In this document: positions 2,751 through 46,919 of the stretch, piece by piece
Numbering within the stretch: the first letter of the stretch is position 1
How the letters are laid out: the number at the start of each line of letters is the position of its first letter
Assembly: GCA_950295325.1 (NCBI GenBank)
Contig: OX485806.1
Coordinates: 53,749,169-53,813,168 of the forward strand
DNA length: 64,000 nucleotides
Source of the DNA: Polytrichum commune
Lineage: Eukaryota; Streptophyta; Polytrichopsida; Polytrichales; Polytrichaceae
Direction: 5' to 3'
Position numbers and translations under genes: made by a program
Notes under the pieces: generated by a model
What the model saw: only the letters and a program-made list of their open reading frames with translations
What the model was told of the DNA's origin: nothing
Database searches by the model: none

Positions 2751-2754
2751 CACA

Positions 2755-3122
2755 GAAAGAACCTCTCGGTTCCGAGAGGGTGAAAACCTAGCCCCCAAAC
2801 AAACCAGTTGAACCTAACAACTAACAAGTGGAACTTATACACACACACAAGTTAAGAACGTTATTGTGCATAATCTGGTCCTATAGTACTACATGAAGAC
2901 TTTCTCGGTTCCGAGAGGGTGAAAATCTAGACCGCAAACAAAGTAGTTGAATCTAAAGACCAACTAGTTGCACCGATCCACACATACAAGCTAACCACCT
3001 TAATGTGCAAAATATGGTCCTATATCACTACAGAAAGGCCCTCTCGGTTCCGAGAGGATGAAATTCTAGCCCCAAAACAAAACAATTGAACCTAAGAACA
3101 AACTAGTTGGAACTATCCACAC
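2755..3122. repeat. 139-bp tandem repeat array, left part
   Basis: About 2.7 diverged units, each with a palindrome CCTCTCGGTTCCGAGAGG followed by a spacer containing AACCTAACAACTAACTAGT-like sequence. Palindromes start near 2763, 2901 and 3041. The array breaks at CACAC (3118-3122), where a 2.37-kb insertion begins, and resumes in phase at 5491. Confidence 0.9.
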
Positions 3123-9800: not shown

Positions 9801-9877
9801 GGAGTATTGAGCTTGAGTTTACAACTTGCCTACAGAGCAAGAGTCCTTGGGATTCATCCCCCGATGGTCGCCAATTA
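6869..9877 (+). pseudogene. Ty3/gypsy family C-type pol (RT-RNase H-integrase), decayed
   Basis: The polyprotein remnant starts in the protease-RT linker (homologous to about 60040 on the minus strand). Reverse transcriptase lies at about 7370-7800, with WVSPMVLVKKKNGKLRMCVN, FGLCNAPATF and a catalytic box VFVDNF in place of VFVDDF. RNase H follows at about 7957-8520 with FHVFYDASSVAVGSALCQ. Integrase lies at about 8780-9480, with IDYVGE, LVSDKG and TNGQTERVNG giving the D,D,E triad. Stops occur at 7797, 8312, 8453 and 9493, with frame changes near 7930 and 8640. The Asp-to-Asn change in the RT box alone should abolish polymerase activity. No gag or 5' LTR is left; the 5' end is cut by the tandem array. 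Confidence 0.93.
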
Positions 9878-10887
9878 TATGAGCCCAAAAACAGTGCCCA
9901 CATGTGGCCTTAACCTCAAGGGAGTGTTAGTACTTAGATTTTAATGTCGTGCAATCCTTCAAAAAGATAAAAAAAAGTGAGACTCTGGTGTTAGGACCTA
10001 GACTGGCTTAAGTATTGGAAAATGATTCATTAGGATTTATGTTTAGGAAGTGGGATGGTGGAGGTTAACTATGGGGATGAGTTACTTTGTGTGGGTGTTG
10101 GGATTAAATAAGGGTTAAGGCTTAGGCCAGTTTTAATGTTCGTTTTGGACTTTGAGGTTGGTGGAATACAAAGGAAGGGGTTTTTGATAAGGGGGGGAGA
10201 GGGCCTCCCTCTTCGAAAGCCGATCAGGTGCTTAAACCTCGGATCAAAGGAGGGGGGTGTGTGGTTTTACAACGAGGAAGGGAGTTCTCTGAGCTACGGC
10301 CAGGAGGATTCATACGAAATGTGAGGAATGCGGCCAAGAGGATTCAGATTCAAGGTGAAGGGAACTTTCTGAGCTGCGGCCAGGGGGATTCAACAGCCAC
10401 ATCAGTTAGTGAGCAACAACTACCGAAGGATTACAATGCCAGCTGACGGGCGTTGACGGGCAGTCTTTCAAGGTGGACAGCGTAGTTTACCGGCTGGGGT
10501 ACCGAACCCATAATTAGTTGATGGGTCCTGGCCGAGACTGATAGGGGGTTCCATTAGGCAGATTCCATCAATGTGGTGATAGGAGGGAGTTAAACTAGGA
10601 ATTAGGGAGGGAGTAGTGAAGAATGAGCCGCAATGTGTAAGGCTTACTCCTAGAATTTGAAGGATAATGTAGGAGTGTGAGCTTTGAATGTAAGAAGGGT
10701 GGAAATAAGGAAAACAAATACACCTATTAATTCTTGTGGCCCCACTTTAAGACAAACTAGTGTGTTGAATGTGACATAAAAAGGGGTATGATCAAAGCTA
10801 GGAGAGTAGTAGGTATTAGGTGTTACATGTGGGTTACAAGCCTTCACCCGGACTCAAACGCATAAGGGTGGAGGTTTGGGCCTCACA
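9878..10887 (+). mobile_element. 3' LTR of the family C-type gypsy element (about 1.01 kb)
   Basis: It begins TATGAGCCCAAAAACAG (the canonical start in the other copy is TGTGAGCCCAAA) and ends GGTTTGGGCCTCACA. The last 40 bp match the reverse complement of the family C LTR at 55644. The flank right after it (CCTATCTACCCTCAACGTCC) continues the family B gag seen at about 54640, so this element inserted into a family B element. The upstream TSD is lost with the 5' half. Confidence 0.8.
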
Positions 10888-11490
10888 CCTATCTACCCTC
10901 AACGTCCATTGTTGTAAAGCACCGCCGAATTTCTTATTGGGGTCATCGACTTTAATGCTCGTGGCAATTTTGATGATCCCCGCCACAACCTCAATAAACT
11001 TTTGGAAATTTGACTTGGTATTCACCACGCGCTTTTGAAAGGCCACCTAAAATGATGCATTTCTTAGAAAACTCGTTCATCTAAGATGTACAATTCATTT
11101 GGATGTGAAATTCGCGCATATACGCCTTAAGACGCCCGGACGCCTCATTTCCATCAAATTCATTCCAACATCAATACCTTCCAAGTATTTCAAATTAGAA
11201 TTTCAATCCAACATTAATGCCCTCCAAGGTTTTGGGTGCATTCGGTATTCTAGGCCCGAAATGTTTTTTGAGGTGTACGGCAGCCCTTTCAAAGGACTCC
11301 ACCATTTTCCTTACCGAATCCACCATCATGCCCACCATTGTCATTAGAACCAATGGTACGGTCAAATTCCATTTACACATGATCTTTGTTCCAATTTGAG
11401 CCTCACAAGCTTTTGGAAACCCCGGGTCACCATCATAACCCGCTTATTTGATAGCCATGCTTCCCTCAAAGTGCTAGCTCAAAAATTGGA
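10888..11490 (-). pseudogene. Ty3/gypsy family B gag-region fragment
   Basis: On the minus strand this matches the gag-side region at 54.64-55.19 kb: shared stretches include NDPNKKFGGALQQWTLR-like sequence near 10910-10960 and LVLMTMVGMMVDSVRKMVES near 11300-11350. It is broken into short frames. It lies directly between the primer-binding site (11491-11509) and the inserted family C LTR, which is where gag belongs, so the gag call rests on position plus the second copy. Confidence 0.65.
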
Positions 11491-11509
11491 ACCCTACTCG
11501 GATACCAAC
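11491..11509 (-). other. primer-binding site of family B element
   Basis: On the minus strand the LTR end GGGTTGCGACA is followed by GTTGGTATCCGAGTAGGG. TGGTATC plus GAG resembles the initiator tRNA-Met site TGGTATCAGAGC used by many plant LTR elements. This fixes the flanking repeat as the 5' LTR of a minus-strand element. Confidence 0.65.
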
Positions 11510-14500
11510 TGTCGCAACCCTTGCCAGCCCCTTAACAATCTTGCCAATTTTCAATTCTAGCAAAGGTTACGAACGCTAACCCTTCTCATTCCGCCATGCT
11601 AATGGTTAGCTCCTCCTACCCCGGATCTTATAGTTCATGTGGTACAACTTTTTGGTCTCAGAATAGTCATTTTAGAATTTTGACAGGATGTGAATTCATA
11701 TTGGCACTCAGAATGTGAAATGGACGTTAAAGTAAGTCATTAGTGACCAATTATCCGAAATGAGCTAAGGGTGAAACATTTAGTTCATATGAAACAGATC
11801 CCAAGAGGAAGAGTCTTTTGGGTAGGGCAATAGACATGTGACCAAGTCGAAGAGCCTTATGAAATCTGATTCCAAGAGACGAGGTAGTTAATTTAGGGGA
11901 TATAGAGGAGAAGAGGGAGAGGAGAAAGGCAGTTCCTCTCGAGAAGAGAGCCTCCCTTGCTTTGTCGTTTTCTGAGTGCTTTTTGCTTGGGTGTGAAGCC
12001 CTTTGTGATGTACATCTTACTCTTCTTAATATAATATTACAGCGTGAAGCTGTCTTATCAACTGTGTGTGAGTGAATCGAAATTGTGATGTGTTGTTTGT
12101 GTTGTTGTTGCGAATCAATTAAGTCAAAGCATCATTTTCTGGTTCGTGAAGAATCGGGAAAGCAGTTGTATTACCTTTCTCCTGTGAAGGGAGTAAGATA
12201 ATTGTTGTGTGCTCTTCATTGCTGAAAGTTATGTAAAGGAGTGTGAAACTCTGAATGAAATTACTGCATTCTTACCTTCTCAATTGTGACTTACTGTTGT
12301 AAGGATGTGTTAGGGGTGACACTGTGTGGATCATTTGTGGTGTCCCAATCCCAACATTCTTACTCTTGACTATAACTTACAAGTGGAATGTGAGATTTCA
12401 CTGTGGGTAACTGTATCATTTATTTGTGTGAATTTGGTAAGGAAAGTTATAGTGATCCTCTCGGAGAGATCAAGAATCGTACTTGTACTGCAATCTTATT
12501 GGGGAATAATTATGAAAGAACTTGAGGGTGTGAAACCTGTAATCAATATGTAAGCCCAAATTGGGAACTTATCATGTCATAATAGAGTGAATGTGAAGTT
12601 CATTCTTTATGTGTGTGTTCGGCCATGGGGGTTGGCTGGATTAGCCTTACTCTATCTGATGGGAATTCAGGATAGACTTTTGAGAATCAACTTGTCATCT
12701 CTGTGGAAAATTCCTCTAAAGGTGCAAGTATAAATTAAAAACTTGTGAAAGGAGCGAATTTCATTTGTCATTGTCTGGCGTGCGTATGAGGTTAAACTGT
12801 GTGAAGCAGTTTAATCATCTTCAATTCCCCAAGGCTCCTTTATGTTGTTGAATGGAACAAGAAATCCGAAATCTCCCATGGTCCATTTGATGTTACAATT
12901 CTACAAAGTTAATCAAGAGATTACAAGCCTGATAAATAAGTTTGTAGAATCAGTTGAAATGAGCAATGTTCATGTCGAAGGAAGATTGAAATTCGGCCAA
13001 GCTATGGAAGTATGAAAACTTGAAGTAACCTTTTTCTGTCTGCAGTGTCCCAACAACAATTCTGTGAAGCCATTGAGTGTAGGAATTCATTTCAGAAAGT
13101 GATGCTCCGTTCTCTCATGGTCAAAAATGTCGTAGTTATTTTGTTGTGGATGATTAGAGCTTAAGTCTCAATAGGAAGGAAACCCCAGTGTGGAAATTCA
13201 GCAGCTAAAAGCAAGAGATCAGTGGAAATCATTTCTGAAGTAAATGCCGAATCTATTGACTGGAGAGAAATTCAGAAGTTTGTAGCAATGAGGACTTGAT
13301 AAACTACGGCAATCTGTTACCACCTTGAAGAAAAGGAAGAGGAATTTAACCTGCACCGCAACCGGGCGAATACGAGCCGTCTGCGGGAGAAAAGGAGGAG
13401 TTTACGTCCGCGGCGAGTCTGCGAAAGAGGGAGTTGTGAGCGCGAGAAGCGTGGCACCTTTAACCCATATCGTTTGGGCGAGTTTAGAAAGGCAAGCATA
13501 AAAGGAGGAGTGGCCAGCATCACCTTCGAGAACTTGACGCTGACTTCGTTACTGGTGACTGGCTACTTGTTACTGGTTACTGGATACTAAGACTATGGCC
13601 CTCTCTATAAGACGTGACTTGATACTGGTTACTTGTGACTGTTACTGGTGACTAGACTATGGCCGTGCCGTGCAGACTATGGTCCTACCGGTTAGACTCT
13701 TACGGTTCCGGTCCGGTTTAGTTCGCTTCGCTTAGACTCGGTCACTAGGTTACTGTCACACGTTAGACTTTTGTTAATTTCAATAATTTATTTTAATGCA
13801 TTCAATTCCACTGTGATAGTGTTAAGTCTAAAACTGGCTAAGGAAATAATTCATTTCTGTGGTCTTTATCTAATTAAATCAATCACTTAACCATAGGAGG
13901 AGTCAAGTGTGAACATGATATCCTTACTAACTGTGGTATGGCCTATAGTCCTTGGTTACTTATTTAAAGAGACTATGGTCACCTCGAGGAGTTTTTGCCT
14001 TGGATTTCTGAGACTATGGCGTACTCAAATGTCTATGGCTGAGCTATAACTCCCTGAATTGCAAAACACATTATAAGAGTGATGTTACTGATGAGAGTGG
14101 GTTGTGAGGGAGTGACTGATCAATTGCATGTACTGCTGTGAGTGACCCTTAACCTTAATTGAATCAATCCTAAAGCTCACTCTAGAAGTCTTTTTCCCTG
14201 TGTTTGTTGTTCTAAATACATTTTAATTCTCTTGTAATCTATCAATTAACTCAATGGTGATCCCTAGATGTAACACCTGACACTCATTTAGTCTTCCCTG
14301 TGTGGTTTTCTTAATTGGAACCCAATCTAAAAACCTATCTACAGTTCATATGAGGGAACCAACCCTCCTACTATGCTTTTGGGACTCACCCCTTAATCAG
14401 TAACCCATTTCTTTGATGTGGACTTCCATTCATGGAAGTCCAATCCTATGGTGATCATCGCATTGCCAGAGCAACACTACAACAACCCGAAGCATACTAG

Positions 14501-15191
14501 GCAACTATGGCCTCACAATGGGCCAAAGCCCATGGAGGCCGTGCCGTTCCGCCTCGGGTGGCTGAGGCCACACCACCTCACCCATATAAGCCTTTAGGAC
14601 TCTACGTGGGGCCCCTACCCCACCGTCAACCAACCTCTTGTCTCTCCACCAAGAGTTGGGGCCAAGTAGACATTTTCCCTTAACCGCTGGGCCTAGAAGC
14701 CCCCAGCAGCTTCAGACCATCACAACTTCCTTGTAGATAGTCTGATTCCAACAACCAACCCCTCCATCCTCATGTACTCTTTACGTAGATGCCGATGGAT
14801 TCCTCACTCGCCCCATTTGGGCAAGTATTGACGAAGTTTTGCCTGTTTGAACCTTTGCAGTCCCGGGAATCACTCCCAGGCACTGCTGTACCAGGGCACT
14901 GTCCTGGGACAGCGCCCCACTCCAATGGCCATAACTCCTAGCTCACACCTCCGATTGAGGTGATCTTGAGCATTCTAGAATCACCACGCCATGAGCTACG
15001 CACAGATCTTGGCCTTACTCTCATGCCTTCTAGTCTCCGTGGGTGGGAGGTGTTCCCAACGCTCGGGCCTTCACCCACACTAGGATCACTTGGGCCCTCT
15101 CACCAACGGTGCCACAAGTCCCGGGTGTCACTCCGGGGTCCCCCTTGTGCCCATGGTGTTTCGGGCACTCCTCATGGAGAGGTGCACGACA
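11510..15191 (-). mobile_element. family B 5' LTR, split by a 2.7-kb insertion
   Basis: The two halves (11510-11637 and 14349-15191) together make one roughly 970-bp LTR of the family with full copies at 40.8, 48.7, 49.7, 58.5 and 62.8 kb. The plus strand begins TGTCGCAACCCTTGC and ends GGTGCACGACA, so the LTR reads on the minus strand. It is followed by a primer-binding site and gag remnant. The flank at 15192 (AGGTG) does not match, as expected for a 5' LTR whose partner is lost. Short open frames within 14.96-15.3 kb are LTR sequence, not genes. Confidence 0.85.
11638..14343. mobile_element. 2.7-kb TG...CA insertion (solo LTR or non-autonomous LTR element)
   Basis: It begins TGTGGTACAACTTTTTGG, ends ...AAACCTATCTACA, and has a perfect 5-bp duplication GTTCA (11633-11637 and 14344-14348) inside the family B LTR. 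It carries no recognisable gag or pol and I see no internal pair of direct terminal repeats. A region near 13540-13740 is rich in ACTGGTTACTGG and AGACTATGG short repeats. Either a long solo LTR or a LARD-like element fits. Confidence 0.7.
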
Positions 15192-17593
15192 AGGTGGACG
15201 AGGCTTCGGCAGGGACGTCAATGCAGCGTCGTCCACCTCTTCCTTCCCTATACTGACTTCTTCCATCTGCACGTCCTATCTCCCATCTGAGGTTTGTTTG
15301 GACCCCTTAGAACAACCACAATCAGTCACAGTCACAGTCAAGTGTAAGCCCAAATCCCCCTCACCCTTCGATTGCGTCCTAGTCCGGGTGAGGGTTCATG
15401 GGCTACATTCAATCATCCAAGGAACAAATGCGAGCAAAGAAGGAGGATTGGGAGAAGTGGTGTGTATATCACCTTTCTTTATGTTTTCTTTTATTACAAA
15501 ACGTCCAAGTATTCATAAACACTTGAGTCTCTTACAATGTCCTAAACACTTCTCCTACCAATCACACTGCTTCCTAAGTATACTTCACCCACCCTGTGCA
15601 CTTAGCTATGCCGCAGCTACCTCCATCAACAAGTGAGGTACAGGTGTCCTTTCACTCCAGCAACCATTCCATGTTAATGCACAACTCTCACTGTTAGGCT
15701 GCCTGCAGTCGCCACCAGTAACCCCCTCGCCACCGCCTCGTCCTTACCTGATCCCGAATCACCCCCAGTTGCCAGAGGTCGGCTTGGGCAGCAACTCTAC
15801 ACCTTCGCCTTTCCTAGACACCGCCTGAATTCACCCTCCGGACCTTGATGCCAGAACTTCGACACCATGATGTGCAGGCATCTGTGCCACCTCCCAACCT
15901 GTTAACCACATGCCCCGGTCCCAGCAAACCCCACAGTAGGAGCTCGCTCAGCTGAGAAGTCCTTCAATCCTTCTGCCGCCCTGCCAATCTCATTCAACTC
16001 CGCCCCGTTGCCAAGATTTATATTTGGTTAGCAAAATTGATGATTTAAGAACCCTCCCTGCCTGCACAGCCGCCTAATTCCCTTCTCACCCACATCTCAG
16101 TGGCCAATCAAATTCCCTCCTTCCAATCCTCATTCATGCATTTGTCAATGGTTGCATACCGATCTAGTTCCTACCACCTGTTCTTGCTTCCTCCTCTCTC
16201 CCTGGCTCAGTGCCTCTTCTTCCGACGATGCGTAGTGATCAACTGTCTATCCAGCCCAACGCCATGAACGTTCCTGCCGTTCAAAACAGCAGTGCACTGA
16301 GCTAATCCTACAAGCTTCAACCGCGTGTCCCCCAACACTTAACATCACCTTCTGTACTCCCGATCTCACATCCCCTTCACTAATAGTCCCATCCTAACAC
16401 GGTCATTCCTATTCCCAAATATGGGTCCATCCGCTTCCGAGCTACTCCACCGTGCTCTTCCTCTCCTCGGCCAACCTCACTGTCCCGCGATATTCGGTGA
16501 AGCTTTCGGGTAACCAACCATTGACTTAGCAAAATTCAGTGGAAACTGACAACGCATCTAGATACCTGATCAATGAGGTGAACGGAGTGCGTTCGAGGCA
16601 AGCAATCCCCGTTTCATCTCTCCGACCACCTTCACCTGTCTCCATTGAAACCACCTTGCGGCCGTAGTGATCGGTTCTACCCGATCTCAATGTGGGTGTG
16701 TTTCGCACCCTGCATCCCTTTCTTCTCCCTAGCTCCATCCGGCAGCTCTGCACCTACGTGCCACTTCCAATGTGCAACCTCTAATCGCTCTTACTCCATC
16801 CTGGATGTGGCATGACTAAGCTCGCCGAATCCCCCTGGGTGTCTCGGATCCCTTATTCGATCATGTTGATAACCCGGATTCCGCCGATTCCTCCTCTTCT
16901 TCGGCTCACCCGGTAGCCCTGTTTTGCATAAGCATCAACAAGTCCTTCTTTTCTACTCCTGCTCGCTCCAGTTCTTGCCGGGGTTCGTACTGGCTTCACC
17001 GCTCCCTCTTACCCAATTCAGGGTCATCTATTGATCGACCCCTCTCTTTCTCCCTAGCTACTGGTGTGCCGTAAGCATGAGCTCTATTACCCTGAACCAA
17101 TTCCCATTCCTCTACGAGACCAGACGGTTGTGCACACCTCTAGGTTGAGGCGGCACTCCCCTCTTACCACCGATCTCCTTCTTCCAGCCACACCCTTCGG
17201 AACCCAACGGAGCAGGGCTTCGCCCTTCTCCCCTTCTCCTTCTCCTCCTCTTCTCCTAGACATGCATAATGAGCCCTCTACCTCCTACCTCCCGAGACCC
17301 CTCCAACCTCTACCCTTTTTCCCGAGTTGCCCGGCATCTTTCGGGCCGCCCGAGAGAAAAAACGGGTTGAGACCTTTTCCCTTGGCCTCTCCCCCTTCCA
17401 AACCCACTTTCCCTTTTCTTCTCTTGACTTCTTCTCCCCCTAGACTCCTAGATAACTAAACTCATTGATAGATAGATGGATGAATAAGATAAAATGAAAG
17501 TAACCCACCATAGTTGTTAGCAAGTAATCACGCTCGTGTCATGGTAAAAGTTGAGGTTTGTAGTGGTTGTGGTCACCAAGTCATGTTTCCTTG
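15192..17593. other. unassigned C/T-rich DNA, with a family C LTR scrap at 15343
   Basis: The sequence TGTAAGCCCAAATCC at 15343 followed by CGTCCTAGTCCGGGTGA matches the end of the family C LTR at 55644 onward (minus-strand sense), but similarity fades after about 15410. The rest is pyrimidine-rich with one proline/serine-rich open frame (17064-17459) that I do not accept as a gene. I see no domain in it. Confidence 0.4.
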
Positions 17594-17603
17594 GTTGGTT
17601 GAG
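17594..17603. repeat. left target-site duplication of the MULE
   Basis: GTTGGTTGAG lies directly before the element start GGACGACAC and is repeated exactly at 32705-32714. MULE elements typically make 8-11 bp duplications. Confidence 0.85.
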
Positions 17604-17695
17604 GGACGACACTTGTATGTGAGTGTAAAGCGGAGAGTGGAGAGCGGAGAGCGTAGATTTGGAGAGCGGAGAACGTAGAGGAAATAAAAATAGTA
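17604..17695 (+). repeat. left terminal inverted repeat with GCGGAGAG blocks
   Basis: TATGTGAGTGTAAAGCGGAG starts at 17616 and is followed by GAGAGCGGAGAGCG and GGAGAGCGGAGAACG. It pairs with the inverted blocks at 32615-32704. The first 12 bp match only in part, so the repeat is old or loosely conserved. Confidence 0.8.
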
Positions 17696-18767: not shown

Positions 18768-21700
18768 CTAAGAAGTAGACTTTGTCAAAAGACCCCCTTC
18801 GAGGAAGAGTTTGACTTCGTTGAAGCTAAATGTCGAGGTGTGAATGAACAAATTCACTTCCGCATCCAAATTATAAACCTTGATGAAAATGTAATACAAA
18901 TGCTTACAATTCATATAAGAATTTCGTTTGCGGCTGAACTTGGAAATCATATCCAAGAAGTATGCGCAGTTGCACTCTAGAAGAGAACTGACTGTCATTT
19001 GGTAGATCGGTGGTTGGGGTTCTGATTTGGACTGCAGTGTGATAATGCAACCAAATCCCGGTTGAGGGATCATAGTTAACTTCAGAACGGTACCATGCAC
19101 AGCTTCAGCAGAGGCCACCATCTGCCTTTGCTTTGCCGAAGGTGCGCTGTTGGATCGCCGAACAAGCTTGGACAATCTTGTCGGAGGGATCATGTCGGGG
19201 TTTTCTGGAACACGGATTCCAGACATATCCAGCGGGGGAGCAGAGTTGGTGAAGAGTTGAGTCGGTGTGATGCGCTCCTTTGGTGGGAATTGAAAACCTG
19301 CGTTCTCAAGGGCGAAGATCTCCGAGCGGGTGAGGTTGGTACCAATCTTCACGGGCCAGATTGGGGGAATAGGAGGCTTCTGGTCATCAGCAGAGAACTG
19401 CATGACCCATTTCCGACGAGGGCCCTTCACGCAACGCTCAATGTCGTCTGGGCAAAAGACAAAGTCCGTGCGCTTCATAGATTGGAGTTTGTAATGATGC
19501 CACATACCGGTGTAGGTCAGCGCAGGGACGCTCTTATTATTAGTGACGATTCTTGCGGTGCACTTCTTCTTCGTGCCCGCATGATTAGCCCAACAAGACT
19601 TCCCATATGTATAGGGTATGCGGGCAATATGCCAAAGAGAGACATCTACTTTGGTTTCTTGCACGGCAGTGACACGCTGGAAACCAAGTCCTGCAGGTGA
19701 AGGCACTTGAACCTCTTGTACAGAGGGGGAAGACTCCTCAATGATAGTGGGTAGTGTTTCTGGTTGAGATCGAGTGACACGCTTACCGGGGGGAGGGCGA
19801 GAGAAGTTCACGGTATCGGGGCGGTGGGTCTCGCCATCATCACCAATTGGAGTGTCTGGTCTTCGCTTCTGCGATCCAAACACCTCGGCGCCCTCAAGGT
19901 GTGGATCGCGAGTGCAAAATTCTTCCCCACCGGACATGTCAAGCAAGACCTTCTGCAACACTGTGGGGTCGCCAGTACGCTGAGCTCGACGTTGAGCACC
20001 CCTGAGCTTTAGTTCTTCTTTGCTTGGACCATCTCCGCCAATTCCACCTTTAAGGAACTGGTAGTATGCAACAACTTGTAAGAAGGCGCGAATGTAGTCG
20101 TCAACCGTAGCCACGTATAGATCTCCACCCTTGTTGCCGGAGGCTTGAAGCCACTTGTTGTGGACGGACTCCGCAAGATTGCACGACGGCATCTCGGCCA
20201 ATTGGTCTTGGGTTAAAACCTTTTCCTGATTGGAGAAATCAAGTATTAATATAAATGTACAGAGAGAGGAAATCGAATCCAAGAAAAACCAATAATGAAT
20301 TATAAAGGAGATGTACCAGTTCCATGAAACCACCCCATTGAAGGTAGCGGAAGTGCCAAAAAGCAAGCCAGAGCTGAAGATGCTTGAGACCGTCCTCACT
20401 TGTACAATTCGATGACGCCCACCAAGCCTTGATAGCTAGGTACGTAGTCTCAACCTCTTCCATAGATGACGCATTTCGATATTGAAGGCAAAGATGTCTA
20501 TGTTGGTCTTGTAACTCATGCTTTATATACGATTTCGTATGTTTTTCGAGCGATTGTTTCCAATGGAAAAAACAAGTGCGCTCACGACCCTCCATTGGAA
20601 CTTTGGGATCCCCTGAACCATACACAATGCGAACAGCGTTCCAATTGGCTTGGGCACTGTCCGCCATGAAGCCTATAAAATTTGGATGTGGGATACCGTG
20701 TCGGGCCATGACGTGGTTGAGGTTCTACCAGAAGAGAACTTGGGCATCCTTATTCTCCGATTGGAAATCACAACATGAAATGGTCATGACCCGTTGATAA
20801 GTCCCATCGTACACATGAGCGGCCATGGTGGTCCACCCTTTGACCCGCTTCACGTGATCGGACATCATCCACGCGTTCTCCAGGTCCCCACCCGGTTGCA
20901 TCCGACGAACCAAATCCACTCCACTTCCAGGACCAACCTCCGACATCTTGAAGACGAACACCTTGTCTGTATTGTCACCTTGTCCTGGGAATTGGTTCCA
21001 TTGGACGTAGGCCCAATTGCTAATGCCTCGGAGCTTCGCGATGCCATCCATAACACCAAACCTCCGCAAATATTTGAAAAAGGTAACCTTAGAGCGAAGG
21101 TTTGGGGAATTCAACTCTCTACAGCTCTCAAAAACAGGTTCAAGCTCTTTTAAAGAAAAGAGACGGTGTGTGTCATTATCGCCAGAAAGGAGAAACTCAC
21201 CAACAATGTCCTTGCTAGCTTCAAGGACGATCTTGCTGTGGGTGGCTTGAGGCGTACGTTCAACGTGCTCCTCAAGAAGTGCATTGATACGCTTCCGACT
21301 GTCTCTGCAGTCTCCAACCTTCACTGGATGTTGATGAGAACCGAGATGAATGTAGGCTCTTTGGGATGACTCCTTCCCATGGACGTAGAAGATTTTGGCC
21401 TCGCATAGTGCAATGCATTTGGGAGGCTCTTTACAAATCCTGCAGACAAGAGTAGATCCGGATGGCACAATGCCAGAGAGAGGGAAAGGATCTTTAGTGA
21501 AACCTTCAAATTCTGTGTCATTGACCTTAGAGGTACGATGGGCGCGTTGAAGGTAATCACAACTCGGGTTTTGGCATTGGAGATGGCCAACATAGGTAGA
21601 GGAACGAAATGCAAGGCCAACGTCGTTTGTAATGTTGGTGGTTTGAGTCTTAGTCCAAACATGGCCATCATATTGCTTGTCCATGCCGTCCAACGACTTG

Positions 21701-22440
21701 GCCCTGGTTTGAGATGAAGAGACTTCTGTTGCAGGGAGGACAAATAACTGGGTGCCATCGAAACGAGGGGGAAGGTGATTAACTTCTTGGATTTTGATTT
21801 TATCGTAATCTATTTTCTTGAGGACGTTCTTACTACCGGGCATAGAGCCAAGACGACGAAGACATTGAACAATAGTTTGAGGAGGTTTAGATGTAGGGAC
21901 CGAAGTAGTTGAAGGGACAGAGCTAGATGGAGAAGGCGTTACGTAGGATGCAAAGGGAAACAAATGAGGGGAATCATGGACAACAGCCTTATGCACTGGT
22001 ACATCTTCACTCGAAGAATCAGACAAGTCTATAACGTTGTCTACACCAGGCTCGGTCTTGACGCTTATTACCGGGGGTGTGCTAAAGGCAACAGTGGATG
22101 ATCGAAGAGGAGGAAGGATTTCTGTTGACACTCCCATCTGAGAATCTGGCCAGCCACAAACCCTATACTTTCCCGCGCCAAGCTCCCACACTACATTGCC
22201 ATTGTCAGTTACCTTGGAGGTCTCATGGAAGGTATGAACGAGCAATCCAGTATCAAGATGGTAGATCTCACGCTCTACCCATATTGTACTAGCTTTCAAA
22301 GAGAACCTAATGCTAAGATGAAGCTCCGAGACAACAACAATACCTTGTGCACCAATGGGGAATATAATAGGGACCCCGATGCCATGTGAACGAAGTTCGG
22401 CCATCTCAGAGACGGGAGGAAGAATTGAGGTGGAAGCCAT
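18768..22440 (-). CDS. MULE-like transposase (DDE core plus SWIM zinc finger), one nonsense codon
   Basis: Two exons: 22440-20317 and 20225-18768, with donor GTACAT and acceptor CAG on the minus strand. I start at MASTSILPP (22440); upstream in-frame sequence has no ATG. The N-terminal half has an acidic Ser-rich linker, then a Cys/His-rich region (about residues 290-380: CQNPSCDY, CRICKEPPKCIALC, HLGSHQHPVKVGDC) likely to bind DNA through zinc. The core has VYDGTYQRVMTISCCDF, FMADSAQANW and the CFFHW Cys-x2-His typical of MULE transposases; NLAESVHNKW in exon 2 is the likely catalytic Glu region. The C-terminus has a SWIM-type finger (CNC ... CKH). A TAG at 20725-20727 interrupts exon 1; otherwise about 1,190 residues read through, so the gene is only recently dead or needs readthrough. 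Confidence 0.85.
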
Positions 22441-22759
22441 GAAGGCAGAGAAAGCAAACGTGAAGGAACAAAGATGCAAAGATGCATAGAGAAGGAGAAT
22501 GGTGATGATGATGAAGTTATAAACAAATACGCATGAATATCAGGAAGGAGACAAAACTGTCAGGCATCCTAAAAAAAGATACCCCTAATTACAAAGATGG
22601 TTGTCAGATAGTAAAGCGCGCCTCCCATCGGGAGGTATTGCAGTTATATACTAAGAAGAATGCGATTGCTCACTTTCTTTCCAATGTGTGAGTTTGATGT
22701 GGTGAGGTTGTGGAAAGGAAATAGAGCGAATAGGTCTGAATTGCGGGAGGGTTGAACAC
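22441..22759. promoter_or_regulatory. probable bidirectional promoter region
   Basis: This is the gap between the divergent starts of the MULE transposase and the second accessory gene. It contains TATATA-like sequence (AGTTATATACTAAG near 22640). I assign it by position only. Confidence 0.35.
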
Positions 22760-23859: not shown

Positions 23860-25310
23860 TTGTGCTTGAAAAATCAAAAGGTTATGTGCACATCATGTTG
23901 CTCTCGGCCTTGTCTCATTTTGTGTAGTGCACAAGAATGAGCCAGGGGAAGAGGCCTCGGATCCGAGGCCTCATATTTGTGTAAGTTTGAGTATGTGAAA
24001 GGTAGGGTTTTGAGAGAGGCGAGGTTCTTGATTTATCAAACAAATGGAATGTCGACTTTCTTGCTTTCTTGATTCCTTGCTCTCGGCCATTTCTTCTATT
24101 GTGTAGTGCATAAGTGGGAGCCATAGGAAGAGGCCTCGGATCCGAGGTCTTTTATTTGTGGGTAGGTTTGTGCTTGAAAAATCAAAATGTTATGTGCACA
24201 TCAATTGCTCTTGGCCTTGGCTCGTTTTGTGTAGTGCACAAGAACGAGCTAGGGGAAGAGGCCTCGGATCCGAGGCCTCATATTTGTGTAAGTTTGAGTA
24301 TGTGAAAGGTAGGGTTTTGAGAGAGGCGAGGTTCTTGATTTCTCAACCTAATGGAATGTCAACTTTCTTGCTTTCTTGATGCCTTGCTCTCGGCCGTTTC
24401 TTCTATTGTGTAGTGCATAAGTGGGAGCCATAGGAAGAGGCCTCGGATCCGAGGTCTTTTATTTGTGGGTAGGTTTGTGCTTGAAAAATCAAAATGTTAT
24501 GTGCACATCAATTGCTCTCGGCCTTGTCTTGTTTTGTGTAGTGCATAAGAAAGAGCTAGGGGAAGAGGCCTCGGATCCGAGGCCTCATATTTGTGTAAGT
24601 TTGAGTATGTGAGAGGTAGGGTTTAGAGAGACGTGAGGTTCTTGATTTCTCAAACTAATGGAATGTCAACTTTCTTGCTTTCTTGATTCTTTGCTCTCGG
24701 CCATTTCTTCTATTGTGTAGTGCATAAGTGGGAGCCATAGGAAGAGGCCTCGGATCCGAGGCCTCTTATTTGTGGGTAGGTTTGTGCTTGAAAAATCAAA
24801 ATGTTATGTGCACATCAATTGCTCTCGGCCTTGGCTCGTTTTCTGTAGTGCACAAGAATGAGCTAGGGGAAGAGGCCTCGGATCCGAGGCCTCATATTTG
24901 TGTAAGTTTGAGTATGTGAAAGGTAGGGTTTTGAGAGAGGCGAGGTTCTTGATTTCTCAAACTAATGGAATGTCGACTTTCTTGCTTTCTTGATTTCTTG
25001 CTCTCGGCCATTTCTTCTATTGTGTAGTGCATAAGTGGGAGCCATAGGAAGAGGCCTCGGATCCGAGGCCTCTTATTTGTGGGTAGGTTTGTGCTTGAAA
25101 AATCAAAATGTTATGTGCACATCAATTGCTCTCGGCCTTGTCTTGTTTTGTGTAGTGCATAAGAAAGAGCTAGGGGAAGAGGCCTCGGATCCGAGGCCTC
25201 ATATTTGTGTAAGTTTGAGTATGTGAGAGGTAGGGTTTTGAGAGAGGTGAGGTTCTTGATTTCTCAAACTAATGGAATGTCAACTTTCTTCCATTTTTGA
25301 TTCCTTGCTC
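23860..25310. repeat. 307-bp tandem repeat with two 22-bp palindromes per unit
   Basis: Units recur at a 307-bp step (for example at 24114, 24421, 24728 and 25035). Each contains two palindromes with half-site GAGGCCTCGGA followed by its reverse complement, plus shared lines such as GGTAGGTTTGTGCTTGAAAA and TTCTCTCGGCC-type text. Short repeated open frames of 63 codons are by-products. Units are close to identical, so the array was homogenised recently. Confidence 0.92.
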
Positions 25311-26199
25311 TCTGCCTTGTGCCCCACGGGTGAACGCCCGTGGGCCATGTAACAAGTAACTTGGTTAGGCATGTCTTTATGAGGCACTTTGGTTGGTTCT
25401 GAGTATGTAAACTAGTTTGTGTGTGAGGCCTCGGATCCGAGGCCTCTCGGCTGAGGCCACTTGAGGTTTTTTGATTCAAAGTATAACTTGTATGAATGAG
25501 GCACTTTGCTTGTTTTTGAGGATGTAAACTAGTTTGTGAATGAGGCCTCGGATCCGAGGCCTCTTTTATGTGTTCCAAAACATGTGTACGGATGAGGCAC
25601 TTTGGTTTGTTTTGAGTATGTAAACTAGTTTGTGAATGAGGCCTCGGATCCGAGGCCTCTTTTATGTGTTCCAAAACATGTGTACGGATGAGGCACTTTG
25701 GTTTGTTTTGAGTATGTAAACTAGTTTGTGAATGAGGCCTCGGATCCGAGGCCTCTTTTATGTGTTCCAAAACATGTGTACGGATGAGGCACTTTGGTTT
25801 GTTTTGAGTATGTAAACTAGTTTGTGAATGAGGCCTCCGATCCGAGGCCTCTTTTATGTGTTCCAAAACAAGTGTACGGAAGAGGCTCTTGGTTGGTTTT
25901 GAGTATGTAAACTAGTTTGTGTGTAAGGCCTCGGATCCGAGGCCTCTCGGCCGAGGCCACTTGATGTTTTTTGATTCAACGTATAGCTTGTATGAATGAG
26001 GCACTTTGCTTGTTTTTGAGTATGTACACTAGTTTCAAAATGAGGCCTCGGATCCGAGGCCTCTCCGCCGAGGCCACTTGAGGTTTTTTGATTCAACGTA
26101 TAGCTTGTATGAATGAGGCACTTTGCTTGTTTTTGAGTATGTACACTAGTTTCAAAATGAGGCCTCGGATCCGAGGCCTCCTTTTAGTGCCCTCGATCA
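25311..26199. repeat. 96-115 bp tandem repeats with the same 22-bp palindrome
   Basis: Palindromes recur near 25428, 25543, 25639, 25734, 25830, 25927, 26043 and 26159 with a different spacer (GTTTTGAGTATGTAAACTAG and GATGAGGCACTTTGG). Three central units step by about 96 bp and are nearly identical. The 25830 copy has one mismatch in the left arm (GAGGCCTCCGA). Confidence 0.9.
25322..25345. repeat. hairpin repeat CCCACGGG...CCCGTGGG, copy 1
   Basis: CCCACGGGTGAACGCCCGTGGG is a near-perfect hairpin followed by CCATGTAACAAGTAACTTGG. Related copies occur near 26641 (same arms, ACACC loop) and 27036 (arms CTCACGGG/CCCGTGAG with compensating changes that keep pairing). Confidence 0.8.
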
Positions 26200-26382
26200 G
26201 CAGTCCCCTGGGAGTGGCTCTCGGGACTGCGAATGTTTAAACAGGCATAACTTCCTTGATTGTTGCCCAAATGGGGCAAGTGAGGTGTCCATCGGCATCT
26301 ACATTTCACGTAGACGACGATGGAGTGGTTGATTGTTAGATTCGGAGACCACACGTGGAAGATATGGAGGTCTGAAGCTGCG
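26200..26382 (+). mobile_element. family B LTR fragment inside the MULE array
   Basis: Sequence from CAGTCCCCTGGGAGTGG to GGTCTGAAGCTGC matches the middle of the family B LTR (compare 41100-41285), including AAACAGGCATAACTTCC. No terminal repeats are present, so it is an internal fragment lodged between palindrome units. An 11-base G run (GCGGGGGGGGGGG) ends it. Confidence 0.8.
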
Positions 26383-27360
26383 GGGGGGGGGGATTGTATT
26401 TTGTTAAGTGCATAAGTAGGAGCTTTGGGAAGAGGCCTCGGATCCGAGGCCTTTTTTTTGTGTCAAGGTTTGTGCTTGAAAAATCAAAATGTAAGGTTCA
26501 TTTTTGAATTCTCTCGGCCATTTTCTGTAGTATGTATTTCATAAGGAGGGGCATTCGGAAGAGGCCTCGGATCCGAGGCCTCATTTTTGTGTCAAGGTAT
26601 GTGCATGAAAAGTTAGGTTTTAACAAGATCAAATGTGTGCCCCACGGGTGAACACCCGTGGGCCATGTAACAGGTAACTTGGGTAGGATTTAGCATCATC
26701 ACGGGGAGATGTCTCCATGTCAAATATTTTTAAAAATTATGATTTTTTTTCTCTATATTCATAACCATTGATTATACCTTTTGGTTATTTTTTTGAAATT
26801 TTTTGTCATCTTCATTTTTCCTAGTAATTGGTTTAGTTGAATTCTGCGTCATTCTAGGTAGAAATGGTATGTTTTCTAGAAAAATATGATCATCAAATTT
26901 GGTCATGATATTTTACCCCGTAATAGATATCATGTATATCTACCTTCCAAAAACATTTGAGAAAATTTTGACCCATTTTGGTGATGCAACTTGGCAATGG
27001 AGTGACCTCCCCTGGAATATCATCAAATGTGAACCTCACGGGTGAACACCCGTGAGCCATGTAACAAGTAAATTGGTTAGGTTTTAAAATCATCAAGGAG
27101 GGGCATTTGGAAGAGGCCTCGGATCCGAGGCCTCATTTTTTAGTCAGGTTGTGTGCTTGAAAAATGAAAATGTTAGGTTCATTTTTGAATTCTCTCGGCC
27201 ATTATCTGTAGTATGTATTTCATAAGGAGGGGCATTCGGAAGAGGCCTCGGATCCGAGGCCTCATTTTTGTGTCAAGGTATGTGCATGAAAATTTAAATT
27301 GGGTAGTGCATGAGGAGGAGGTAGGAAAAGAGGCCTCGGATCCGAGGCCTCTCATTCGTA
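26383..27360. repeat. third palindrome array segment with hairpin repeats
   Basis: Further 22-bp palindromes occur near 26430, 26561, 27114, 27243 and 27331, spaced irregularly. Between them are the hairpin repeat copies at about 26641 and 27036 and an AT-rich stretch at 26710-26900. It has no coding content. Confidence 0.85.
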
Positions 27361-27521: not shown

Positions 27522-30500
27522 ATATGGACTCTTCACAGGTTGCGCAATCGCAACCCCAATCTGGAGAGGATGTTGTTCTTGCGGCCCCCGCGGTTGAAGT
27601 TGAAGCTGTGCAGGTTGAGAGTCTAAATTCGCAGGGCCCATTACAAGTAGAGGTGAGTTGGATAGTTGTTGAGTAATTTGTTGAGCAAGTTTTTTGAGTT
27701 CTAGCTTTCTAAGCATGGTTTTACTATTTGTGTTTTTTTTAGGCTCTCGCAATAAGCGAAGATGCCGTTCAAGCAGTTGCCAACACGGATCCCGTGGTGT
27801 GTGAGCTTGAGCTTTCAAAAGGAGGACTCCATTGGTGTTATCCAACGCCTCCGGATTAAGCCAACATGTAAATCCCGCTTATCCATTCCTTTGTGCCGCT
27901 TGAGAGCCCTCCATCTCGTCCGTCCTATAAGTGAGGTTGAGGTGCAACGCTTGGAATGTGAATTTGTAATGGGATACCGAGAGGGTGATCGGGTTCTTTA
28001 CGTGTCTGCTTTCAACGACGTTCCCGTGGACCTCCCCATTCCCCTTGGTATTATGGCCTCTTGGAGCCCTCTCTGGCAAGAGGCCTCCGCAAAATTTGAC
28101 GCCAAACTCAAAGAGGATCCGGATCTTGCACATTTCGCCGGGAAGATGTTCTTCGTCTGGGAAGGCAATCATCGTCTCACCGCTTGGTGGAGACACATCA
28201 ATAACCACCACGCCGATGACAAGAGTTGGCATATCTCGGTGGATTGCATTGTTGTTGACCTTAGAGGATACACCGGTGTATTTCTCAATGCCATGAGCGA
28301 CATTAATTGGTAAGCTCACTCATTCTTTTCATTCATTTTTCATTTTTGTTTCAATTATTTTCCATTCTTTTTACCTCACGTTCCTCACATATTTTCTCTC
28401 AGGTCAACCGAGCATGATTATGTCAAGGCAAACATTCCGGCCAAGCTCCTTCGAATCCGCACTTTTGGAAGGTTAGAGTTGTCCACCTTCAAGGATCTCA
28501 TATCGCCATCTGACTACAAAGCATGCGAGAAGATAAAGGAGAGTCGTCCAACTTGGTACACCTTGACTGCGGATGTGTTCGTTAAGTTTCTTTACAAGCT
28601 ATGGTTTGTGCATTCAATCATTTAGAACTTCCAACATAGACAATTTCTATGCCGATTATATGAACTCACAAGATCATTTCTTGCAGAGAGACATTTCGGC
28701 TCAAGCAGACCTTGCAGTGAGGCATTACCGTGAGACCACACCCGTTGCGGAGAGGTTGGCCACTGAGATTTGGAATGTTATGACAAAGGGCCAGGAGAGG
28801 ATAATCAAAAGTATTCGGGCCCGTTCTTTTGAGAAGTACATATCCGTTGCACACCCTGACAATGGAGAGGATTTCTTTCATGAGGTACTCTTTTGAACTC
28901 AAATCACTCTTGAACGCAATTCATCCAAATCACTCTTCAACTCTATTATTCTTTTGAACTCAAATCATTTTTATTTTGTGCACAGATTGACCGCCATTTT
29001 AATGAGTTCTCTTCGACGGACATGACAATTGAAAAATTGCAAAAAATTGTCACATGCCCGGTCGAACCTTCGTTCAAAGCTAAGTGGCTTTACTGGTGGA
29101 ACGCCCCCCTTCGTGAAAGGTTAGATAACAAGTTCCCCGTCGACAAGCCTATGAGGGAGAGGGCTTTGGACGACTGGCTACACAAGGCGTCCTTCTGGGC
29201 TCAGGTAATCCATTCCTCGCCTTCTTCATTTTCATTTTCCTCTATTCCATTTATCTCATATCTAATCATCTCCCTCTCTGCAGTTGGAGAAGGAAGTCGC
29301 GGTTGAAATTGAGACCTTAGAGGAGAGCCTCTCCGTCGACATTGATTGGGACGCATCAGAAACTATCTTGCGCCCTCGTGAGTACGTTGATCATTGGCGG
29401 ATTGTCCTTTGGGACAAGGCCTTCAAACCTTACCTCAGCGATAAGCCTGACATCGCCTTTGCCAAAGGTGATAATCTCTTGGAGTTCGAGGAGGGGGCTC
29501 TCGCTATCAAGCGTGTGGCCTATCGGTAATACATCTATCCTCCACTTTGCACCTCTCCTTAATTTCATTTCTTGCTCGTTTTCTTGGTTTTCTTACATTC
29601 TTGTTTTGTCATGTAGGTATATCATGAGAGAATTGGTTGTGAAGAATGCATTGGCCTCATCTTCCTTGCCGGACTACCTCTCGGACTGGGTGAATATTTT
29701 TTCTAGCCTCTGCGTGTACACGACCGCGCAAACAAACAAGTTCTCCGAATTGCACTTGCAAGGTGGTGGATGGTACTTGGATTGTGCTGCAGGATTTGTC
29801 CCCGGGGAAGAGAAGGCTTTGTTTGCTAGCCTTGTGGGTAGTGCTCCGGATGATAACATTGTTACCTTGGAGGAGCCTGACATCGTTGAGCTTCCCCCTC
29901 CTCCTTCTAAGGCACCAAGGAGAAAGGGCAGAGCAAAGAAGACCGCCACTCAAGCATCTTCCCAAGTTCTCATTCGGTCTGCTTCTAAAACCCCAGTTGA
30001 GCCACCCACCCTCCCACACAGTCCATCTATCGTTCCCTCCGTTGCTCCCTCTCTTGCCCCCTCTGTTACTCCATCTGCATTTCATCCACAATCTCTTGCC
30101 ACTCCATCTCATAGTGGCACTTCTCTCCTCTCTTTGCCTCGCAAGAGGAAGGCCGCTCTCTTGGATACCAATGCCACCTCTTCGGATGCCCCTAACACGC
30201 TTTCCCTCATCGAAAATGTGGACATGGTTCAACTAATGCTGGATTCCGAGGTTGCCGGAGGTCCCCTCCCCGAATATACCCGCATCCAAGAGTTCATTGC
30301 CAAGGTTTGTATACTTGCCTTCGTCAATTCTCAATTTTTTTTCCTTTGCTTTGATTATTTTTTTCCTTCTTATTTTCTCATGAAGTTTCAATTGCAGGTT
30401 GGGGCAGGTCGTTCCCGTGTGAACACCTCGACTACAACTCACAAGGGCCTCGATTTGCTCTTCGCCGACATTCCCGAGAATTTGCCGGTGCCGAACATCT

Positions 30501-31702
30501 CCACCGATGTTCCTGCTTGGAACAAGCTCCATGAATCATACTATGAGTGTATTTTTGCATTTGCGAAATCTAACCTCTATGATCATGGTGTCCTTGTTCT
30601 TGCCCATTGTGCGAGTGTCAGTGTTTCTAGGAGTATTTTCGATTGGGCACACACTTATGACTTCTACGTCGCGGAAGATTGGTTTGGAATGAATGATTTG
30701 GACCTCCAATCTCCCGTTGTTCCCTCTGGAGTGGTAAGCAAGTCTCCCTCTCTTTCCCTTCCGTATTGCTTATCATTTCAATTTCAATTCCATTTCATTT
30801 CAATTCAATTTCATTTTCATTGTTGCAGACTCGGAAGTTCAGCATCAAAGTTCTTGTTCGTGTTAACTCTGTTCTTAGAGTGCGGGAGGAGGCCATACAA
30901 GAGTATGGTTACAACCTCCAACGAGATGGATGGTTGAATACCTTCACCGATAAGAAGAGCCAGGCGATGCGCAGTGATGGGGTACCTTGGCGAGGTGCCC
31001 ATGAGAAGCATTCTATTTTTTTTTCCATCCTTCTCGCTACTCTCACCGACAAGAATGATGTTATTATGGACTGGCAGTGTGGTGTAGGTACGCCTTGTTT
31101 TTCAACTTCATCCTTACTTTGAATTTTCTATTATTTTTCCTTGAGTAGTTTCCATACTAACATTTTACCTCTCGTTGTTTTAGGTGGTTCGATTACAGCA
31201 TGTCGCTCCCTTGAGCGGCATATTGTGGCCCTTGAGAGTGACCCCGTCATTTTCAATTCACTCCTACTCCCCATGCGCGATTCCCAGCCTGCGCGTATAT
31301 CTCGCTCAGTTACCGCACCGTCTACATCTATCTTTGATCCTCCTCAAAAGATGACCAAGAGGGCATTCGGATTCCTTTGTGCGTAAGTTTGCTTTTTATA
31401 TTTTGCCATGTTTGCCTTGATTTCAAATTCTCATTTTCTAGTGTCATCATGTTTCTAATCATTTTGCTTGGGTGTTTAGAGAGCCAGCGGAGGTCGCAGT
31501 CATTCGTCGAGACATGTTTTCAAGTCCTCCGAAGCCATTTGAGCTTCCCCCGTATGCTAGTGCAATGGCGGATTGTTTTGCGAAGGCGGAGTCCCCATCT
31601 CCTCCTCGCGTTCGTCATTTCTCGCGTGGGACACGAAATCTTTTCTTGTTAGAAGCAAATGAGGGTGAGGAGAGTGATAGGGAATGTTCTCCAAGCCCTT
31701 AG
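27522..31702 (+). CDS. multi-exon MULE gene with ParB-like and beta-class DNA-methyltransferase-like domains
   Basis: Proposed exons are: 27522-27652 (doubtful), 27743-28309, 28403-28603, 28687-28884, 28986-29204, 29284-29525, 29617-30304, 30398-30733, 30829-31087, 31184-31382 and 31480-31702. Nearly all have GT-AG borders and keep frame; exon 2 is open from ATG 27762 but does not match the frame of exon 1. FFVWEGNHRLTAWW (about 28150) resembles the ParB G-x-H-R motif. DLLFADIPENL (about 30455) sits where DPPY (motif IV) lies, followed by LYDHGVLVLAHCA like the LK-GG-L strand. HEKHSIFFSILLATL then VIMDWQCGVGGSITACRSLE (codons across the 31087/31184 junction) fits motif I, D-x-G-x-G. The order IV then I is that of beta-class amino-methyltransferases. 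Asp-Pro-Pro-Tyr is replaced by Asp-Ile-Pro-Glu, so catalysis is doubtful. The linker at 29900-30200 is Ser/Pro-rich with basic patches. Confidence 0.7.
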
Positions 31703-32614: not shown

Positions 32615-32704
32615 CTCCTAAAATTACCCAACAAAATCTAAATTTTCCGCTCTCCAATCTCCGCTCTCCGCTCTCCGCTCTACGCTCACATACTTGAGTT
32701 TCCC
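32615..32704 (-). repeat. right terminal inverted repeat of the MULE
   Basis: CCGCTCTCC blocks (32648-32690) followed by GCTCACATACTTGAGTTTCCC mirror the left end. The element stops at 32704, directly before the GTTGGTTGAG duplication. Confidence 0.8.
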
Positions 32705-32770
32705 GTTGGTTGAGGAAGGATGTTAGTATTACACTTAGACGGTCCGGGTTCGATTCCCGTTGAGTCGTCT
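32705..32770 (+). other. right target-site duplication and tRNA/SINE-like B-box sequence
   Basis: GTTGGTTGAG (32705-32714) is the second copy of the duplication. Downstream, GGTCCGGGTTCGATTCCCG (about 32742-32760) looks like the T-arm of a tRNA or the B box of a tRNA-derived SINE, but no matching acceptor stem or clear A box is present. The MULE may have landed in an old SINE. Confidence 0.35.
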
Positions 32771-45850: not shown

Positions 45851-45993
45851 TATGTTGCCATCTTGTTGATGGTAGAGCGGTCTGCCAAGTTGGCACACAT
45901 GGCACTGATTGTGGGAACCGCGACCGCGTTGGAGATCACATAGTTTTTTCTCCAAAGATGGTTGAGGCACCATGGGTTACCAAAAGTGATTGT
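45851..45993 (+). pseudogene. family B gypsy integrase fragment
   Basis: The plus strand encodes LLMVERSAKLAHMA..., then LRHHGLPKVIV, matching the integrase at 2.3-2.5 kb and 52.3-52.6 kb (which are on the minus strand). It is cut on the left by the CACTA end and on the right by the MULE transposase fragment. Confidence 0.85.
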
Positions 45994-46919
45994 GCCTACC
46001 ATCGTCGAGGAGTCCTCTCCGTCAGTGCTAGATGTTCCACCACCCCCTCCTACTGGTCTTGATTTTTGCCGGGTCACTGTTGTACAAGAATCCAAAGTGG
46101 ACGAGAAGCTCTGGCATATTGCTCGCGTTTCTTACAATTCTTCCAAGGCATGTTGGGCCATGAATGTGATCACCAAAAAGAAATGCACACCCAAAATCGT
46201 CTCAAACCCCAAAAACACCCTTGCCCCGGCATACCTTGGAATTTGGAATTATTACAAATTCACAACATCTAAAGTCAAGAAGTTTGAGTCGCAATTGGGT
46301 TGTAAAATTCATTGTTGGCCAAGAACAACCTCCAATCCCGCCCGTATGGCCTGTCAAGCTTGGTACCAACCTCACACATCCGAAGATCCTGAAGCTTGAA
46401 AATGCCGGTTTTCAGCTCCCCCAGAAAGAACGCATCACGCCCACTCGCCTCTTTAACACATCAGCTCCTCCCCTCGACCTCTTCGGAGTGGACGTTCCAA
46501 CCAACCTTGACTCTTATCCTTATTCCAAGCAGTCCAAGTCTACAAGACGGTCTGCCACTGCACCATCAACAAAACAAATGCAGATGGTGGCATCTGCACG
46601 AGCTATGGACGGAACCATCTTGAAGGTCACCATGATTCCACGCCCTAGATCTGGTTGCGTGATCATGTTGCAGTCCAAACCTACACCTACACAATCAATT
46701 TACCAATTCACAGTGAGTTATCTGCCCGGGTGTAATTTCCCGGCCTTCAAGGATATGATATCAAAATTTGGCCGCAAACGAAATTCATTTTTGCATTGTA
46801 AGCACCTCTACTTCATCTTTGTCAAGGTCTCTAATGTAGGCCCCGACATTGACTTGTTCATTCACGCCCCGACATTTAGCTTCCATGAGGTCGAACTCAT
46901 CCACGAAGGGGCCTCTTGA
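45994..46919 (+). pseudogene. C-terminal fragment of a second MULE transposase copy
   Basis: Begins PTIVEESSPSVLDV and ends at the stop after HEVELIHEGAS, matching the last 330 residues of the transposase at 18.8-19.7 kb, with a frame change near 46290. The SWIM-like end reads GCNFPAF ... CKHLYFIF, so the second Cys of the C-x-C pair is Phe here. The first codons join in frame to the gypsy integrase fragment to the left. Confidence 0.88.

Follow-up and report, generated by a model that had tools for sequence, protein, structure and literature searches.

Results

The element and its two genes

The window analysed here is the whole 64,000-nt stretch of Polytrichum commune DNA (contig C4, 53749169-53813168; the genome searched comprised 407.8 Mb in 64 contigs), and coordinates are positions in this window unless another contig or locus is named. 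Between 17603 and 32704 it contains a transposon of 15,102 bp that resembles a Mutator-like element (MULE) and carries, besides a transposase gene on the minus strand, a methyltransferase-like gene on the plus strand, with an array of palindromes between the two divergent genes.

The left terminal inverted repeat (TIR; 17603-17679, plus strand) begins with GGGACGACACTTGTATGTGAG; its part 17615-17679 is identical to the right end at 51 of 65 positions, the outermost 12 nt having been added by reading. On the right (32637-32704, minus strand) the repeat was detected at 32637-32693, and similarity to a second copy of the element (C1:2252875) stops exactly at 32704. The 9-mer GTTGGTTGA adjoins both ends as an exact target-site duplication (17594-17602 and 32705-32713); 11 nt are common to the two sides, with three mismatch-free registers, and the chosen one gives GGGA at both termini. 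The transposase gene (18768-22539) is made up of open frames at 22539-20725, 20724-20239 and 20435-18768. It had no MULE match in Pfam, and its DDE-like and SWIM-like motifs (CCDFQSE, MADSAQANW and, near the C end, CxC...CxH) were recognized by eye only; in pieces it is 35-64% identical to the transposases at the same relative place in two sister families described below. TIRs together with 9-bp duplications were present in all three elements for which both ends were located, namely that of the window and the sister elements A (duplication TCTGTTACC, two registers fit) and X2 (duplication CAACAATGC); the left end of the C1 copy was looked for and not found. On the TIRs, the 9-bp duplications and the motifs read by eye the element is MULE-like, and a gene lying between such ends, divergent from the transposase, is almost certainly element-borne, as the sequence-only reading of this DNA had claimed. 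A related transposase fragment (55-61% identical) was seen outside the element, at 45992-46913.

The methyltransferase-like gene (27762-31702, plus strand) was modelled as ten exons joined by nine GT-AG introns into a single open frame of 1029 aa, and the peptides picked out in the sequence-only reading, which had counted about ten well-joined exons, were found in it. The presence of introns marks the DNA as eukaryotic. The first of these exons (27762-28309) contains a WEGNHR block (FFVWEGNHRLTAWW, 28149-28190), which is kept in relatives. Exons 28403-28580, 28687-28884, 28986-29204, 29284-29525 and 29617-30304, supported also by relatives, encode a middle part without known domain and a GGGWYLD block. 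Exon 30398-30733, which includes both DLLFADIPENL and LYDHGVLVLAHCA, carries motif IV, with DIPE (30467-30478) replacing DPPY. Motif X (HEK..., HEKHSIFFSILLATL, 31000-31044) and the S-adenosylmethionine (SAM) motif I, DWQCGVGGS (31069-31087, continued from 31184), are encoded by exons 30829-31087 and 31184-31382, the part aligned with phage DNA methylases and PHROG methyltransferases below, and the last exon with the stop codon (31480-31702) has a matching last exon in family 2.

The 5' part of the model is less regular. A possible first coding exon (27524-27652, plus strand), the frame of which is uncertain, joins in frame via the AG just before 27762 as an optional eleventh exon and extends the product to 1072 aa, and a stronger-looking acceptor before 27743 runs into a stop. 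Since alignment of the second element copy with the window (tblastn, blastn) has an 8-nt gap in the 5' stretch of the gene, the window copy may be frame-damaged there. After the second exon of the model the relatives have, following ...YK, the donor AAG/GT, where the window reads AAGCT (28596-28600), and the model takes an upstream GT at 28581. These two spots point to a window copy that is damaged or alternatively spliced there.

The second copy, reached via the palindrome alone, matched the protein in pieces at 73-100% identity. Its gene has no region corresponding to window 29761-30941, and the comparison with the window covered ten of eleven exons, two of them only partly; it yielded 24 synonymous and 27 non-synonymous differences, with a pooled pN/pS of 0.317. 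On our reading of the alignments, relatives at approximately 26% identity share the architecture, as well as two or more of the intron positions. These matches, the ratio and the relatives show that the gene is real and more than chance. A protein search also found a match in the fern Adiantum nelumboides, a hypothetical protein of 601 aa (E 1.6e-16), and two further protein searches gave seven proteins. Fragments of close relatives (P0003-P0008, 48-82% identity) were seen in ENA/JGI contigs; P0003 and P0004, the two spanning motif IV, keep DIPENLP.

Sister families

A genome search with the methyltransferase part of the window protein (P0002), in which 75 of 1593 first-look candidates were scored, gave 83 matches. 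Three diverged families retain the gene: that of the window, family 2 (loci A, B and X4) and family 3 (loci X1-X3). In the six other loci examined the order is transposase on the minus strand, arrays, gene on the plus strand, although some loci are decayed or cut by the end of the stretch. Within family 3, dN/dS (the ratio of non-synonymous to synonymous substitution rates) was 0 to 0.51 in six pieces compared between X1 and X3 and 0.19 to 0.39 in four in-frame pieces compared between X1 and X2, with 0.49 for the transposase of X1 and X2; the underlying numbers are small and some copies contain stops. Values from alignments crossing frameshifts were set aside (middle exon X1/X2, 0.561; motif X/I X1/X2, 0.817; transposase X1/X3, 0.669). 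At one family 2 locus (L007:342-1764) a protein-kinase-like series of frames (GRGSYGVVWK; PF00069 E 0.21, below cut-off) was noticed between the array and the methyltransferase-like gene.

Relationship to beta-class DNA methyltransferases

The motif order IV, X, I is the permuted one of the beta class, and the SAM motif is present. One alignment took in the window and two sequences each from families 2 and 3, with X2 left out for want of identified splice sites. All five retain the SAM motif, as well as the acidic residue after the next strand, with the exception of one family 2 copy (FKAD). When a profile of these five sequences, three of which were retained after filtering, was compared by hhalign with four phage DNA methylases, 63 columns of motifs X and I aligned with Prob 96.8, P 2.9e-10 and a score of 73; the highest score among 40 column shuffles was 20.3. 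Family 2 alone was co-linear over 185 columns, motif IV through motif I (P 5.9e-9 and 1.9e-8), in a comparison that favours this family because the phage set had been picked with it; the window sequence alone gave P 3.3e-5 and Prob 72.5. In PHROG the window independently matched methyltransferases at E 0.0019, 0.036 and 0.11, plus one family of unknown function at 0.2. A tblastn search of phage genomes with the family 2 region returned 16 records up to E 10, the best at 0.02, and among the 12 matches listed 11 were annotated as methylase or methyltransferase and one was unannotated. A viral contig search gave no match. Among PDB sequences P0002 had four hits up to E 1, of which two were unrelated and two were weak matches to methyltransferases (3eld, E 0.38; 5eqj, E 0.71).

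The profile suggested earlier for this protein, PF01555, gave a divided result. Two family 2 copies in the same genome scored 35.3 and 32.4 bits, above the curated cut-off of 26.7, whereas the window's own region (12.9) and a family 3 piece (13.7) stayed below it; the whole spliced window protein had no match in Pfam. Taken together, these comparisons bear out a beta-class assignment with motif IV ahead of X and I, and the C-terminal part is very probably derived from permuted beta-class N4/N6 DNA methyltransferases. Three further loci of the assembly (L001, L002 and L003, on contigs C10 and C12) scored 98.5, 68 and 55.4 bits with PF01555; these are possibly bacterial contamination or organelle DNA.

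The N-terminal part had been called ParB-like. The block around IPLC and EGNH is indeed conserved, with 38 invariant columns in three rows, and the ParB label itself found no support in sequence: PF02195 did not match the window, family 2 or family 3, no ParB-named PHROG family was matched, and a tblastn search of phages with the WDGNHR region of family 3 returned eight records, all unrelated or unannotated. A WEGNHR profile compared with PDB sequences matched ribosomal L28 only (two chains, E about 0.5).

Motif IV

In active enzymes of this kind the catalytic motif is [DNS]PP[YFW]. It is absent from motif IV of all three families: the window has DIPE there, family 2 DIPD and family 3 (read from X1 and X3) QFPD, so that the degenerate DPPY reported earlier for the window extends to both sister families. 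Within family 2 (loci L010-L047, which overlap, and counting only readings followed by GMPIHGI) DIPDG was found in 20 of 24 readings and EILDG in three, the remaining one being DIPYG. The acidic residue in the aromatic position in all three families argues against amino-methylation. Because the motif is degenerate in three diverged families, methylation activity is unlikely, and the protein is probably non-catalytic.

Palindrome arrays

Twenty-two copies of the 22-bp palindrome GAGGCCTCGGATCCGAGGCCTC lie at 23951-27351, between the divergent transposase and methyltransferase-like genes. Sixteen of them are in tandem units of 307, 117 and 96 bp and six are outside such units; none overlaps the exons of the gene or the transposase stretch. 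At up to three mismatches these 22 sites were the only ones in the window, and 100 shuffles gave none. Conservation is 0.99 in the site as compared with 0.70 and 0.62 in the flanks. Genome-wide there are 1,903 exact copies of the palindrome, against 0 of the backwards control. One genomic array was examined, the first listed (C1:2252875-2257763); it is flanked by the transposase (97-98%) and, on the opposite side, by the gene.

The sister families have palindromes of their own. In family 2 it is TTTGTGCGC-NN-GCGCACAAA, with 7, 6 and 6 sites in A, B and X4 (up to four mismatches). In family 3 TTGGGTCG-NN-CGACCCAA lies both within the intron of the transposase and upstream of the methyltransferase-like gene, its arms conserved and its centre varying freely (10,011 exact copies in the genome; backwards control, 0), and a second palindrome, CTGTGCGT-TA-ACGCACAG, has a fixed or nearly fixed centre. 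Both arms of every palindrome, in all families, contain a CpG. In the array flanks CpG is depleted (observed/expected 0.50-0.64); the genes have 0.76-0.83 in the window and family 3, and in A the gene, at 0.52, is as low as the flanks. At most, this pattern hints at selection or at low methylation.

Stretches outside the elements were scanned for recurring palindromes with a threshold of three sites. Such palindromes were found to the left (7 exact sites) and right (4) of the window element and to the right of X1 (16), which leaves no clean negative control; there were none in the flanks of A or the right flanks of X2 and X3, and X4 stayed under the threshold. Six repeats of approximately 1 kb in the window (14340, 40798, 48685, 49722, 58527 and 62815; 88-93% identical, both strands) were also seen, five of which carry ACTTCCAT-NN-ATGGAAGT.

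Discussion

We tentatively propose, as a reading that falls short of probable, that a methyltransferase-derived and probably non-catalytic protein binds the palindrome arrays specific to its element and acts on element chromatin or transcription. The gene is almost certainly an accessory of a MULE-like transposon, and its product very probably descends from a prokaryotic-type beta-class DNA amino-methyltransferase, retaining the SAM-binding half while the DPPY active site has been lost. As a dimer, this protein would bind the long palindromes, which are arrayed between the divergent promoters of the element and, in one family, within the transposase intron as well. Bound there, it would hold the chromatin of the element open or set its transcription, in the manner of VANC (see below); palindrome and protein would diverge together between families. 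Binding to the palindromes, as judged from sequence, comes close to an even balance without quite reaching it. An anti-silencing role, for which the palindrome arrays, not mentioned in the sequence-only reading that first raised the idea, offer circumstantial support by analogy, is doubtful. We regard as fairly unlikely the more specific conjecture that the product is a catalytically dead, SAM-binding reader of family-specific, CpG-armed palindromes, which would shield or mark the element against host DNA methylation and co-diversify with its thousands of genomic sites.

Several observations weigh against this proposal. AlphaFold2 applied to P0002 (four alignment rows) produced no confident fold (predicted local distance difference test score, pLDDT, 36.4). 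The flanks of CTGTGCGT-TA-ACGCACAG in X3 (0.84/0.81) are almost as conserved as the site (0.92). In the right flank of X1 there are 16 exact family 3 palindromes and no homology to the transposase, the WDGNHR block or the methyltransferase. A second array occurs in the window at 2760-6799, with 13 sites of ACCCTCTCGG-NN-CCGAGAGGGT (up to four mismatches), ten of them from 5550 on at a spacing of approximately 139 bp, and there is no such gene in 1-17600; retrotransposon-like frames, recognized by eye, adjoin this array, which shares the core CTCGG-NN-CCGAG with GAGGCCTCGGATCCGAGGCCTC. These gene-less arrays show that arrays are not confined to elements with the gene in reach, and the link between palindrome and gene is not exclusive; deleted or non-autonomous copies could explain them. 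In the neighbour locus of X1 (L041, X1 10952-17164) the 16 exact TTGGGTCGNNCGACCCAA sites are accompanied by two open frames (329 and 333 aa) in a stretch without homology to the gene or the transposase, and this locus is perhaps another element using the same site.

On the question of which protein would bind the palindromes, the main rival is the transposase, alone or in a complex with the gene product, for promoter control or transposition, the methyltransferase-like gene then doing something else. TnpA of En/Spm, with its multiple subterminal motifs, is the model for such binding. The transposase is present in every examined locus with the gene beside an array and diverges between families along with the gene, as the palindromes do, and it could be the binder instead. 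The sites, however, lie in the middle of the element (window) and in an intron (X2) rather than at the ends, and the TIRs hold other short repeats, of the GAGCGG type; we judge this alternative rather unlikely. We hold it still less likely that the arrays are sites of a host factor or cruciform-prone repeats spread by tandem duplication, with no element-encoded binder and with the gene a captured passenger. The occurrence of the same palindrome without the gene in the X1 flank fits this explanation, as does the location of most window sites in tandem units, where duplication is by itself enough to spread sequence. Against it, the palindrome is more conserved than its flanks across different repeat units, the centre of one family 3 palindrome is free to vary, and the gene has been kept in three diverged families. 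That the protein is an active but divergent N6A or N4C methyltransferase, modifying element DNA via an altered motif IV, seems quite improbable. The SAM motif retained in three families, the in-frame dN/dS values below 1 and the single DIPYG copy of family 2, close to an active DxPY and itself a point against our proposal, would suit an active enzyme; the other family 2 readings and the window's DIPE do not, and QFPD of family 3 is without even the first acidic residue.

If the proposal is true, a second solution to anti-silencing would have been built from a bacterial-type methyltransferase, possibly a new means by which a transposon controls its chromatin. The protein would represent a group of sequence-specific DNA binders whose sites are long and differ from family to family, and with the presumed targets visible as exact-palindrome arrays in three families it would become possible to test whether protein and target coevolve. 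To our knowledge, element-encoded anti-silencing is known from few cases, of which VANC is the best studied. Among the titles and abstract openings listed in a literature search, largely without subscription papers and without preprints, none described a MULE with a methyltransferase-like gene; the palindrome array between divergent genes and its counterparts in two other families are new here.

Comparison with known systems

The protein shares with the N6_N4_Mtase family (PF01555) the motif order IV, X, I, the SAM motif and, through family 2, a score over the Pfam cut-off; it differs in having DIPE, DIPD or QFPD for DPPY, a long N-terminal region without Pfam match, an intron-rich gene and a transposon as carrier. 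METTL14 has a methyltransferase fold with a degenerate active site and works in nucleic-acid binding; the degenerate site is the likeness, whereas class and family are different and there is no evidence of relationship. The enzyme of bdelloid rotifers that writes N4-methylcytosine (4mC), which we take to be N4CMT, is likewise a bacterial-type amino-methyltransferase in a eukaryote, and it is reported to leave 4mC (PMC8885841), whereas the present protein is element-encoded and probably inactive.

The closest parallel in arrangement is VANC of the VANDAL elements. In Arabidopsis, VANC is an extra element gene and a short motif, different between families, is arrayed in tandem in the non-coding DNA of the element (PMC5735166). 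The element described here likewise has an extra gene and element-specific motif arrays in tandem repeats of its non-coding DNA, the locus in the X1 flank, without the gene, being the exception. The sites here are palindromes of 18-22 bp, whereas the motifs of VANC are 8-9 bases long and arrayed in one orientation. VANDAL elements are themselves MULEs. For VANC, motif binding goes together with loss of DNA methylation; a counterpart here is conjectural. The present protein is very probably methyltransferase-derived, and the likeness is drawn from the arrangement of gene and arrays. Arrays, family-specific sequence and an extra gene fit the VANC pattern, with a different protein ancestry.

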